Part shown: piece by piece, positions 11,418 to 58,654 of the stretch
Numbering within the stretch: position 1 is the first letter of the stretch
Layout: each line of letters opens with the position of its first letter
From: Microlunatus elymi
GTDB taxonomy: Bacteria > Actinomycetota > Actinomycetes > Propionibacteriales > Propionibacteriaceae
Assembly: GCF_007362775.1 (NCBI RefSeq)
Contig: NZ_CP041692.1
Span: 2,356,001 to 2,420,000, forward strand
DNA: 64,000 nucleotides
Direction: 5' to 3'
Notes under the pieces: generated by a model
Databases searched by the model: none
What the model saw: the letters and a program-made list of their open reading frames with translations, nothing else
Told to the model about the DNA's origin: nothing
Position numbers and translations under genes: made by a program

Positions 11418-11467
11418 ACGAAGTCCGTGGTTACCTGAACCCCCGAGCAGGCAACCACGGACTTCGT
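11418..11467. repeat. Large intergenic hairpin
   Basis: ACGAAGTCCGTGGTT (11418-11432) pairs perfectly with 11453-11467, and CCTG/CAGG continues the stem inside. It sits between the divergent GNAT and RNase J genes, so a terminator role is not obvious. It may be a repeated extragenic palindrome. Confidence 0.55.
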
Positions 11468-16282: not shown

Positions 16283-17109
16283 GAACGCACCGTGACCGCG
16301 GCCACCTGGTCGGCGGTCAGGGTGGACAGCTCGTCCAGCAGTCGCCAGCGCAACGAGCCCGGACCGTCGGCCCGTGCGCCGGCCCGTCCGATCCCGGCGG
16401 TGATCATGGCCAGCGCACCGGCCGCCCCGTACAGCGGATCGTCACAGGCGGCGCAACAGGCCGCGACCAACGCGGTGGCCGCACAGCCCAGCGCGGTGAT
16501 CATCGGCGCCCGCGGGTCGCCGCCGTCGATGATCAACGCTCGGGTGCCGTCGGTGACCAGATCCGACGATCCGGTGACGGCCACCACGCAGCCGAGTTCG
16601 GCGGCCAGCGCCGCCGCCCGGTCCGCCACGTCGTCCACGCCGGCCGCACTGTCCACACCGCGACTGGCGCCCGAGATCCCTGCCAGGGCAAGGATCTCGC
16701 CGGCGTTGCCGCGGATCACGGTCGGCCGATGTTCCAGTAGCCGGCCGGCCAGTTCGTGGCGGTAGCCGGTGGCGCCGACGGCCACCGGGTCCAGCACCCA
16801 GCAGCTGCCGCGGTCGTGCGCGGTCGACGCCGCCGCGAGCATGCCGTCGGCCCAACGCGGCGACGGGGTGCCGATGTTGGCCACCACGGCGTCGGCCAGC
16901 CCGGCGAACTCGGCCGCCTCCTGCGGATCGTGCACCATCGCCGGTGACGCGCCCGCTGCGTTGAGCAGATTCGCCGCCAGGTCCATCGAGACGAAGTTGG
17001 TGATGACCTGCACCAGCGGTCGCTTGGCCCGCATCGCGGTCACGACGTCAGCGACACGGGCCGAGTCGGTGGCCGTCGAGGTGGACAGGTCTGGACGCGA
17101 CGATGTCAT
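16279..17109 (-). CDS. thiM: Hydroxyethylthiazole kinase
   Basis: The 276-residue ribokinase-fold protein phosphorylates hydroxyethylthiazole for salvage. Visible motifs include PLVQVITNFVSMDLAAN, DPVAVGAT and the catalytic-cysteine region ITALGCAATALVA. ATG 17109 follows AAAGGGAG, which also forms the 3' side of the TPP riboswitch, so ligand binding could hide the ribosome binding site. It is the first gene of the thi operon. An in-frame upstream extension runs through the riboswitch and is not coding. Confidence 0.95.
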   Translation of the reverse strand: MTSSRPDLSTSTATDSARVADVVTAMRAKRPLVQVITNFVSMDLAANLLNAAGASPAMVHDPQEAAEFAGLADAVVANIGTPSPRWADGMLAAASTAHDRGSCWVLDPVAVGATGYRHELAGRLLEHRPTVIRGNAGEILALAGISGASRGVDSAAGVDDVADRAAALAAELGCVVAVTGSSDLVTDGTRALIIDGGDPRAPMITALGCAATALVAACCAACDDPLYGAAGALAMITAGIGRAGARADGPGSLRWRLLDELSTLTADQVAAVTVRS

Positions 17110-17112
17110 CGG

Positions 17113-17190
17113 GCTCCCTTTCGCCGGCATGACCCGGATCAGGTTCGGCGGGTGTGATCTCAGCGCGAACCCCTCGCGCACCCCGGCCAC
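17113..17190 (-). promoter_or_regulatory. TPP riboswitch (THI element)
   Basis: On the minus strand the leader has the conserved blocks in order: GGGGTGC, CTGAGATCACACCC, GAACCTGATCCGGGT and CATGCCGGCGAAAGGGAG. These form the P1-P5 junctions of the thiamine-pyrophosphate aptamer. The last block contains the thiM ribosome binding site, which points to translational control in which TPP switches the salvage operon off. Confidence 0.95.
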
Positions 17191-17240
17191 TGGTGTGCCA
17201 CGTCGGCACACGACGAACGCTACTCGATGGCTGGAGCCGA

Positions 17241-27758: not shown

Positions 27759-27770
27759 AGAGACCGGAAT

Positions 27771-27845
27771 CCTGAGATTGCGGACGCAGTTGCCGAATCC
27801 GGGCTCGCCGAGGCCGAAATCACCCACTGCGTCCGCAATATCAGG
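27771..27845. repeat. Palindromic element I-a downstream of the first DUF559 gene
   Basis: The arms 27771-27790 and 27826-27845 are complementary at 19 of 20 positions, with core TGCGGACGCAGT / ACTGCGTCCGCA, around a 35-nt loop. It ends 46 bp from the stop of the DUF559 gene. A second copy lies on the other side of that gene. Confidence 0.8.
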
Positions 27846-27891
27846 ATCGTGGCGGTCGACGTCGATGGTCGGCCGCGGGGTCGTAGCTCGC

Positions 27892-28809
27892 TCACGGGCG
27901 GGCCGCCCGCTGCTGCGCGCGCCGGGCCATCGCCAACGCAGCACGGATCTGAGCTATCACGACCTGAGGATGGTCGCGGAGATCGACCCAGCTGAAGCGG
28001 AGGACGATCCAACCCGCCAGCACCAACGCATTCTGCCGCTGCCGATCGGACACGAACCGGGAAAGATCGGTCTGATGCTCCAGGCCGTCGATTTCCACAG
28101 CGACCTTCAGTGATCGAAAACAGACGTCGATGTAGTAGGTCAGTCCATTGATCAGCACCTTGCCGTTGCCGGTCCAACCTCGGATTCCGGCCCGGTGCAG
28201 AAGTTCGTGAGCATGCCGTTCCAACTCTCCCCAGGGCGAGTCGCGAGAGTCATCGAGCATTCGGCGACGGCGCGCATTCCCGGGGCGGCCGGGAGTGGCC
28301 GCGAGAGCGAGCTCGAGATCCGCCAGCGAGACCATGCGGCTGCGCAGCGCCTCGGCGATCACCTTGCCGCCGAGCTCGGGGACCAGATCGATCGCCGTCA
28401 TGGCCGGAGCGCACAGACGTAGAGTCCGCTCGCCGAAGAACGGCAGCTCGATCACCCAATCCGGATCGGGCCCACGTCGCGCGAATCTGTAACCCGACGC
28501 CATCGGTGCCCGGCCGCACCCGTGTGCCACCTCGATCTGCGGAACCGCGAGATCTGGCCAGAATGTCATCGACGCCGCCGCGCGTCCGACCACCACCGCG
28601 TCCGGTGACCAGGCCGGCACCGCCGCCAGCCGGGTTTCGAGCGACGTCGCGGCCTCGATCGGCGCATAGACCCCGGGTAGTAGCCGAGACAAGTGACCGG
28701 ATCGCATCAGGTGATCGATGCTCGAGCGCAGCCGCGGCCAATCCTGTCTGCGGATCAGGCCCCGGCGTCGGAGGATGTCGTTGACTTCGAGAGTCGCTGT
28801 AGTCGTCAC
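27892..28809 (-). CDS. AbiEi-like N-terminus with DUF559 endonuclease-like domain (copy 1)
   Basis: The 305-residue protein has a helical, winged-helix-like N-terminus (about 1-60, RSGHLSRLLPGVYAP) resembling AbiEi antitoxins, a middle region, and a DUF559 C-terminus (about 190-295) of the Vsr-like restriction fold. Candidate metal ligands are D228 (TYYIDVCF), E239 and D241 (VEIDG) and H245, with SDRQRQN and GWIVLRFSW after them. No toxin partner is adjacent. It is paralogous to the gene at 57518 (identical in stretches such as VVIAQIRAALA). Palindromic elements flank it on both sides. Nuclease activity is inferred. Confidence 0.82.
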   Translation of the reverse strand: MTTTATLEVNDILRRRGLIRRQDWPRLRSSIDHLMRSGHLSRLLPGVYAPIEAATSLETRLAAVPAWSPDAVVVGRAAASMTFWPDLAVPQIEVAHGCGRAPMASGYRFARRGPDPDWVIELPFFGERTLRLCAPAMTAIDLVPELGGKVIAEALRSRMVSLADLELALAATPGRPGNARRRRMLDDSRDSPWGELERHAHELLHRAGIRGWTGNGKVLINGLTYYIDVCFRSLKVAVEIDGLEHQTDLSRFVSDRQRQNALVLAGWIVLRFSWVDLRDHPQVVIAQIRAALAMARRAQQRAARP

Positions 28810-28902: not shown

Positions 28903-28907
28903 ACAAA

Positions 28908-28984
28908 CCCTGAAACTGCGGACGCAGTCGTCGATTTTGGGGCGGTGATGGCGACCTGGCGCGACTGTGTCCGCAGAATCAGGG
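28908..28984. repeat. Palindromic element I-b upstream of the first DUF559 gene
   Basis: The arms 28908-28930 and 28962-28984 are complementary at 20 of 23 positions, with the same core TGCGGACGCAGT as the copy at 27771. It starts 98 bp before the DUF559 start codon and ends 22 bp before the -10 box of the next gene. Confidence 0.8.
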
Positions 28985-29018
28985 TTCGGTGCGGATGCCC
29001 GGCGTCTACCGTGTTCCG

Positions 29019-57269: not shown

Positions 57270-57373
57270 CCGCGCCGGACGCCGGACCTCGCGAACACAA
57301 TCGCCCGCGCATTGATCGACAACGCGGGTTCGAGGCCGATATCGGCCAATCGGCGGGTGGTTCTGTTCGCGGG
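57270..57373. repeat. Palindromic element II-a upstream of the second DUF559 gene
   Basis: 104 bp, alignable without gaps to 58454-58557 (16 differences by my count). The arms CGCGAACA... at 57290 and ...TGTTCGCG ending at 57371 are complementary over 28 positions with 7 mismatches. It lies 144 bp before the gene. Confidence 0.8.
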
Positions 57374-57432
57374 AATCGTCGCCCCGGTGGCGCCCACCGT
57401 GTCCGGGGCACACTCCGGGACAGTGGCCACCT

Positions 57433-57476
57433 CGGTTATCCACAGCTGCGCGGGTGGTTCGAAGCGGCATCCACAG
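57433..57476 (+). promoter_or_regulatory. Paired TCCACAG motifs upstream of DUF559 copy 2
   Basis: CGGTTATCCACAG (57433-57445) and GCATCCACAG (57467-57476) precede the start at 57518. The first is identical over 13 bases to the motif before copy 1 and includes the DnaA-box sequence TTATCCACA. Confidence 0.55.
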
Positions 57477-57517
57477 CCCCCCGGCCGGCTTCGGCACAAA
57501 AGTCGCAATGTCGAGGT

Positions 57518-58447
57518 ATGAGAGCGAGCCACAATCAGCACCTGATCCATGAGGTTCTGCAGTGGAATGGCGTGATCGCCCGCCGAGCCCACCTGGACCT
57601 GTCCCAGACGATCGGCCGGATGCTGCGGGCCGGCGAACTCGTCGCGTTGCTCCCCGGTGTCTACACCTGGGCGCGCTGGGCGGGCGACCCGACCGTCCGC
57701 CTGCTGGCTGTCGCGGCCTGGTCCCCGGACGCCGTCGTCTGCCGGCTCGCCGCCGCCCGACTCACTTTCTGGCCCGAGGTGGATCATGGCGAGCTGGATC
57801 TGGCCGTCAGCGATCGACGCTGCTCCGCGAAGGGATTTCGGCTGCACCGCCGGCGACTTCCGCCCGAGCACATCGTCGGCTGGCCGCTGCTGGGGGAGGA
57901 CGCCGCGACCGACGGCCGAGGGATCGTACCGATCACGGGCCCGGCGCTGACGGCGGTCGATCTCTGCGCCGAGCTGGGCGGGGAACCCATCGACCGGGTC
58001 TTGCGCAGCCGTCAAGCCCGGCTCGCGGATCTGCGTGGGGCGTTGGAGTGCACGGCGCACCGGTCCGGAAACCGCGACCGCCGCCGCGTACTCGTCGAAT
58101 CCCGTGCCGAGCCATGGTCCGCCGCGGAGCGGAAGGGGCACCGGCTGCTGTTCGAGGCCGGAATCGGTGGTTGGTTCGCGAACTTCGAGGTTGCCGTCGG
58201 CGGGAAGACCTACTACCTCGACATTGCGTTTCCGCACCTCAAGTTGGCCGTCGAGATCGATGGCCGATTTCATGAGGACGATCCGGACCAGTTCCAATCC
58301 GACCGGGAACGACAGAATGCGGTGCAACTCGCCGGATGGTTCGTGCTGCGCTTCACCTGGTACGACCTGGTGGATCGCCCGAAGGTCGTGATCGCCCAGA
58401 TCCGTGCCGCCCTTGCGCGCTGCCGGAAACTGGCGGGTATTCGCTGA
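57518..58447 (+). CDS. AbiEi-like N-terminus with DUF559 endonuclease-like domain (copy 2)
   Basis: The 309-residue paralogue of the gene at 27892 shares AAWSPDAVV/PAWSPDAVV, an N-terminal winged-helix-like region (MLRAGELVALLPGVYTW) and the C-terminal DUF559 fold. Candidate catalytic residues are D235 (TYYLDIAF), E246 and D248 (VEIDG), H252 and D262-R263 (SDRERQN), followed by GWFVLRFTW. ATG 57518 has no strong ribosome binding site. Direct 104-bp palindromic repeats flank it. No toxin gene of the AbiEii type is adjacent. Confidence 0.82.
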   Translation: MRASHNQHLIHEVLQWNGVIARRAHLDLSQTIGRMLRAGELVALLPGVYTWARWAGDPTVRLLAVAAWSPDAVVCRLAAARLTFWPEVDHGELDLAVSDRRCSAKGFRLHRRRLPPEHIVGWPLLGEDAATDGRGIVPITGPALTAVDLCAELGGEPIDRVLRSRQARLADLRGALECTAHRSGNRDRRRVLVESRAEPWSAAERKGHRLLFEAGIGGWFANFEVAVGGKTYYLDIAFPHLKLAVEIDGRFHEDDPDQFQSDRERQNAVQLAGWFVLRFTWYDLVDRPKVVIAQIRAALARCRKLAGIR

Positions 58448-58453
58448 CCGATG

Positions 58454-58557
58454 CCGCGCCGGATCCCGGACCTCGCGAACACGATCGCCCGCGCATTGAT
58501 CGAAATCGGGCGTTCGGAGCCAATCTTGATCAATCAGCGGGTGATTCTGTTCGCGGG
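58454..58557. repeat. Palindromic element II-b downstream of the second DUF559 gene
   Basis: The second 104-bp copy starts 6 bp after the DUF559 stop, in the same orientation as the copy at 57270. Its arms 58474-58501 and 58528-58555 are complementary at 23 of 28 positions around a 26-nt loop. Confidence 0.8.
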
Positions 58558-58654
58558 CACCGCTGACCCGGGGACCGGTAGCCACGACACGTTCACTCCC
58601 GCCCCTGGCACCACAACAATCCCAGGTCGCTGCGTTACCGTGAGCGGCGTCGCT

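Follow-up and report, generated by a model that had tools for sequence, protein, structure and literature searches.

The DUF559 gene at 57518-58447 (+) of the Microlunatus elymi window (the whole stretch of DNA analysed here, 64,000 nucleotides) is bracketed by two copies of a long palindrome that is dispersed through the chromosome of this soil actinobacterium. We favor, with moderate confidence, the reading that this locus, gene and palindromes together, is the source of a REPIN-like replicator whose enzyme is a nuclease unrelated to RAYT. Bacterial genomes commonly contain short dispersed hairpins, and among the drivers proposed for them the RAYT transposase is the best studied; the function of the DUF559 nuclease family is, to our knowledge, mostly unknown. 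The term 'REPIN-like' is used in place of REPIN because the enzyme differs from RAYTs and because the complete genome returned no match to Y1_Tnp, for which 5 of 14 control genomes were positive. The gene and its palindromes are referred to below as unit II, and a second DUF559 locus of the window as unit I.

The unit II locus and its protein

The unit II gene encodes 309 amino acids in an intact frame with an ATG start, and lies between a left flanking repeat at 57270-57387 and a right one at 58454-58571. As originally predicted, an ungapped alignment of 57270-57373 to 58454-58557 contains 16 differences and 88 identities in 104 bp, and the likeness extends outward to 57387 and 58571, at 82% identity across 118 bp. 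The two copies are in direct orientation. Each is a long imperfect palindrome with an outer core CGCGAACA / TGTTCGCG and a stem of approximately 26-28 bp per arm, which bears out the 28-bp arms first described; the 82-nt palindrome cores (CGCG...CGCG) occupy 57290-57371 on the left and 58474-58555 on the right, the latter starting about 27 bp past the stop codon. Folded as single-stranded DNA, the two flank copies give z values of -2.3 (4 of 200 shuffles do as well) and -3.5 (0 of 200). Rfam has no match at the palindromes; above the gathering score the window contains just a TPP riboswitch (17098-17195, -) and an Actino-pnp RNA (993-1056, +). At 11418-11467, well away from either of the window's DUF559 genes, lies a strong inverted repeat of 20 bp (score 17; loop of 10 nt), which may act as a terminator or belong to a further palindrome family.

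According to fold prediction and alignment, the unit II protein joins an AbiEi-like region (residues ~1-196, 57518-58105, +), with a winged helix at residues 1-53, to a nuclease domain of the Vsr/I-Bth0305I type (residues ~199-304, 58112-58429, +). Pfam places the protein in DUF559/MTES_1575 rather than Y1, with a DUF559 score above the cut-off (32.3 versus 20.6 bits) and an MTES_1575 score below it (35.7 versus 38.2). The residues E204, D235, E246, G249 and D262 are invariant in all 57 aligned sequences, the unit II protein included, and the catalytic fold and acidic active site of the EDxHD homing endonucleases are both present by the same two lines of analysis. Candidate positions for the histidine of the EDxHD motif are residue 208, a histidine in 55 of the 57 aligned proteins, and residue 252, a histidine in 18. 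A single-sequence structure model of the protein was poor (pLDDT 36) and was set aside.

The AbiEi-like antitoxin feature of AbiE systems is found in the unit II protein through its fold and through PADLOC profiles, where AbiEi and a methyl-directed restriction enzyme were weakly matched; in Pfam terms, AbiEi_4 matches 12 and AbiEi_1 matches 5 of the 57 aligned proteins (E 0.01), with the unit II protein itself in neither set. These weak PADLOC matches are what might suggest a role in defense or toxicity, the protein being a restriction or abortive enzyme and the palindromes self-marks or decoys. The surroundings of the gene argue against such a role. It is directly flanked by genes for a response regulator and SdhA, belonging to a two-component pair (response regulator, histidine kinase) on one side and to two succinate dehydrogenase subunit genes on the other, and the four neighbors scanned include no toxin, methyltransferase or other defense gene. 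We accordingly assign the defense reading only a very slight probability. Compared with the AbiEi antitoxin of the type IV toxin-antitoxin system AbiE, the AbiEi-like region of unit II differs in being fused to a nuclease and in having no AbiEii toxin gene adjacent to it, among those same four neighbors.

Pairing and co-divergence of DUF559 genes and palindromes

Inverted repeats within 300 bp of DUF559 genes were scored by an ungapped scan at 96 family loci, that is, eight from the own genome and 89 picked, not at random, from a homologue listing, less one (L006) that had no tblastn hit. A repeat is found on at least one side of 64, 60 and 49 of the 96 loci at scores of at least 12, 13 and 14, respectively, in comparison with 16, 7 and 1 of 50 other predicted genes of the window, and the contrast is threshold-dependent, since the figures for other genes climb at the lower scores. 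Repeats on both sides are present at 20, 17 and 10 of the 96 loci at these scores, compared with none of the 50 other genes. Control windows, which overlap and derive from the same family loci, contain a repeat of score 14 or higher in 15 of 904 cases. At this score 47 of the 96 loci are without a repeat, and unit II itself falls outside the 49 positive loci, with scores of 10 upstream and 13 downstream that are low because its stems contain bulges.

The association extends beyond the family. Thirty outside loci, chosen by record title from 80 after L248 was dropped as a near-duplicate of L247 and drawn from Pseudonocardiales, Mycobacterium, Mycolicibacter, Nakamurella, Rhodococcus, Cellulomonas and others, carry a repeat of score 14 or higher in 22 cases, against 4 of 434 control windows. 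The pairing of gene and palindrome across DUF559 loci is well supported. Matching flank copies on both sides are seen at 59 of 124 loci, where the better match is direct in 32, inverted in 24 and equal in 3; the direct arrangement of the original prediction is thus correct for unit II and does not hold as a rule.

Several further observations were made in the course of these scans. DUF559 occurs in three plasmid and two phage records, all below 60% identity, and weak DUF559-like matches occur in the Rhizobium phages RHph_TM61 and RHph_TM39, where the annotation is homing endonuclease. Nine palindromes away from DUF559 genes were kept, several of which themselves resemble palindrome families. 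A palindrome with GGTAGGTTGCGGC arms and GTAG inside is common to the Microlunatus genomes G088 and G059; it lies at L080 and L088, over 1.3 kb away from the DUF559 genes, and is possibly a GTAG-type REP family.

Within the M. elymi genome there are eight DUF559 loci, with differing palindromes near most of them. In unit I, a paralogue of 305 amino acids at 27892-28809 (-) has palindrome copies upstream (28906-28986) and downstream (27769-27847), and a genome search detected no clear dispersal of this palindrome. One locus (L004, G000 1522667-1525876) has its DUF559 match in a short frame of 95 amino acids with a palindrome still near, and is probably a decayed unit, while the palindrome of another paralogue (L007) occurs as overlapping tandem copies approximately 51 bp apart at G000 2942819-2942948 and 853639-853772.

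The proposal that every paralogue is paired with a palindrome of its own, protein and site diverging together, is upheld by a comparison of 60 loci (1770 pairs), namely those of 94 with clean gene coordinates that have a palindrome score of at least 12 and a loop of 20-80. Palindrome likeness correlates with protein likeness (Mantel r 0.29, with none of 5000 permutations as high). Palindromes are alike (score of at least 10) in all 8 pairs at protein identities of 0.70 or more, in 7 of 11 at 0.65-0.70, in 9 of 23, 9 of 36 and 9 of 88 in the successively lower bands between 0.65 and 0.50, and in 59 of 1604 below 0.50. The high-identity pairs come largely from two groups of related genomes and are not independent, and genome kinship contributes to the trend because similar proteins come from related species. 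Kinship alone is nonetheless disfavored by the contrast between 35 same-genome paralogue pairs, which have a mean palindrome score of 7.1 with one at 12 or more, and 17 cross-genome pairs at identities of at least 0.65, which have a mean of 12.6 with ten at 12 or more.

This tracking of protein lineage by the palindromes also bears on the suggestion that they are ordinary MITEs or REPs, moved by some other transposase, between which DUF559 genes have come to lie by chance. Transposases are indeed thought to move short hairpins in many bacteria, as stated in the part of PMC3733652 used here. Besides the co-divergence, the far more frequent bracketing of DUF559 genes than of other genes speaks against a chance arrangement, as does the missing match to a Y1 transposase in the complete genome, Y1 being the one class covered, and we regard this explanation as highly improbable.

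Dispersal and turnover of the palindromes

A covariance model built from an alignment of 21 full unit II copies, themselves found by a DNA search of the own chromosome, recovers 26 distinct doublets in the 5.12-Mb Microlunatus chromosome (52 rows on both strands), and 24 of these copies lie away from the DUF559 gene. The doublets have a fixed architecture, with opposed half-sites spaced by 62 bp in 20 of the 24 that are measurable. All 25 exact half-sites are found inside doublets, as are 20 of 22 with one mismatch and 5 of 14 with two. In the alignment of 21 copies the arms are conserved and the loops are not, and inspection of the conserved arm ends revealed no GTAG or CGTC tag. Base-pair covariation shows no clear excess over shuffles, of which 30 to 132 in 500 attain the values observed, and as a consequence the stem rests on the conserved arms. 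Judged against home-made, codon-based gene calls, none of the 21 copies examined (of 26) lies inside a predicted gene, and 3 extend over the end of a gene for 4-25 bp; the surrounding genes are in tandem in 9 cases, divergent in 7 and convergent in 5.

The dispersal of unit II is an addition to what the original prediction had seen. In one sense it places palindromes near unrelated genes, at the 24 off-gene positions, yet the pairing is unbroken, since genes of other kinds less often have a strong repeat beside them (at score 14, 1 of 50; at score 13, 7 of 50) and since, among the palindrome matches listed, none lies outside the home genome. That last statement comes from a search of 30 DUF559-adjacent palindromes against 21 genomes, with 14 candidates scored per genome and 233 matches tabulated over both strands, so that counts are lower bounds; the count outside the home genome of the palindrome's own gene, which serves as the comparison, is zero in the listed rows. 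Among the matches listed there are at least 111 distinct places, with at least two places for 22 of the 30 palindromes, at least three for 17, and the palindrome's own place only for 8. Exact copies of a mycobacterial palindrome number 5, 2, 8, 6, 7, 11 and 0 in seven genomes, and 0 in the control. When the unit II model was applied to 19 genus mates, weak matches only were obtained, in four of them (the best in G125, E 1.2e-6), and by eye most of these resemble other palindromes. Two palindromes of G125 found with this model (L145, L150) have CGACCAGAATCGCG- and CGACCACTTTCACG-like arms and a build like that of unit II, and are possibly its distant relatives.

The loops carry a record of copying that varies between families. 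Loops of unit II are barely alike, with a mean identity of 0.60 compared with 0.56 when shuffled and 51 of 210 pairs exceeding the 95% level of shuffled loops, and either the duplication of unit II is old or recent copying is unsupported by its loops; it is for this reason that our confidence in a REPIN-like replicator is no higher. Loops of dispersed copies exceed the shuffled level in 20 of 28 pairs in G171, where duplication is evident. In two G155 families they do so in 6 of 10 and 4 of 10 pairs, and duplication there seems likely.

Also informative are two Mycolicibacter genomes (G198 and G200), which are 87-89% identical around four shared palindrome sites. At these sites the arms are identical at 96 of 96 positions (a figure that by choice covers sites exact in both genomes), in comparison with 76 of 100 in the loops and 90 of 160 in the ungapped flanks. 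A fifth site is common to both genomes with one arm altered. When the eight sites of the G200 list alone are considered, the G198 counterparts are exact in four cases, altered in one, without the element in one and without a full counterpart in two. Elements L282 and L294 are each present in one of the genomes only, in diverged intergenic DNA, and for L287 and L288 a full counterpart was not found in the second genome. On these alignments the palindrome arms look constrained or refreshed, and turnover appears slow. Neither the G155 flanks nor the Mycolicibacter sites revealed a clean empty site or a target duplication; the G155 search covered the first 7 of 10 joined flanks, amounting to 2802 of 4000 bases, in relatives that were too distant. 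At the SdhA orthologues of 5 of 19 genus mates, the response regulator and DUF559 gene are unmatched in the locus and in the 1.5 kb upstream.

The positions and loops of the copies are also what weighs upon a regulatory explanation, in which the palindromes would serve either as terminators or as operators through which the AbiEi-like protein would repress the gene encoding it, and the dispersed copies would form a regulon or act as terminators. A winged helix in the AbiEi-like region, the presence of a copy shortly before and just after many DUF559 genes, and the score-12 repeats beside 16 of 50 other genes are all in agreement with this. However, the 21 unit II copies occupy every gene arrangement and not solely upstream or downstream positions, the nuclease residues are invariant, and the loop likeness among the G171 copies points to duplication, such that regulation appears distinctly unlikely as the principal explanation.

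A free-standing homing endonuclease is the other alternative of substance, if an unlikely one. Here the palindrome would be the target, in or beside which the gene inserts, and lone palindromes would be empty targets or remnants left by recombination between the flanks, for which direct-orientation copies such as those of unit II would be suitable. The predicted nuclease domain is close in fold to the homing endonuclease I-Bth0305I, which dimerizes on a target near 60 bp according to the portion of PMC3943268 available. Set against this, inverted flanks are nearly as frequent as direct ones, and there are 26 unit II palindromes for one gene. Nor do the DUF559 genes of the own genome resemble a spreading gene, being diverged from one another with different palindromes. 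The unit II gene is single-copy and distinctive there, with a best paralogue 49% identical, yet two genes of G160 reach 69% (a comparison that is not systematic).

Relation to known systems and proposed mechanism

In returning to the replicator, we infer that the enzyme binds and cuts the palindrome, which is then copied by repair. The non-autonomous unit would be the doublet, two opposed half-sites of approximately 26 nt with a span of 82 nt in unit II, which would be copied or maintained genome-wide by the cognate enzyme encoded between two doublet copies. The AbiEi-like/winged-helix part would read the half-sites, the enzyme probably being dimeric on two half-sites or on an extruded hairpin, and the metal nuclease of the Vsr/EDxHD type would cut or nick the palindrome, whereupon repair from another copy would spread or refresh it.

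Judged from the parts of PMC3116915 and PMC3733652 used here, the REPIN/RAYT system (REPtron) is the closest analogue of unit II. The two share dispersed palindromic doublets outside genes, with matching copies beside a distinctive gene, and DUF559 systems in general resemble REPIN/RAYT in having several pairs per genome, in each of which enzyme and palindrome co-diverge (PMC3116915; PMC3733652). They differ in that the DUF559 enzyme is predicted to be an AbiEi-like/Vsr-like nuclease rather than an HUH tyrosine (Y1) transposase, and in that unit II lacks the GTAG or CGTC tag. TIRYTs and TIRtrons, as presented in the same portion of PMC3733652, are also similar, in that a gene is flanked by long inverted repeats that can form small dispersed families, with the difference that the enzyme is a tyrosine transposase.

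On the nuclease side, the unit II protein differs from the homing endonuclease I-Bth0305I (EDxHD; PMC3943268) in that its nuclease is joined to an AbiEi-like region. Vsr endonuclease and Caulobacter VsrA share the Vsr fold and DUF559 domain with unit II; the available part of PMC12907096 contains no mention of palindrome pairing. No report of DUF559-palindrome pairing was found in search listings of the open-licence PMC literature, preprints aside.

With our judgment evenly divided, actinobacterial DUF559/AbiEi-like nucleases may constitute a second, independently evolved class of REPIN-driving enzyme, with a metal-dependent Vsr/EDxHD nuclease that would recognize two opposed half-sites, a hairpin that would be spread and refreshed by cutting and repair, and several such pairs in many genomes. 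Enzyme and hairpin look like partners, and together they are perhaps a small genome parasite or tool of a kind so far little known. The DUF559 family is large and occurs in several actinobacterial groups; the pairing points to a probable substrate for it and predicts which hairpin goes with which enzyme, and the many natural enzyme-site pairs offer material for understanding how recognition changes. The pairing could also account for dispersed palindromes in bacteria that have no RAYTs.
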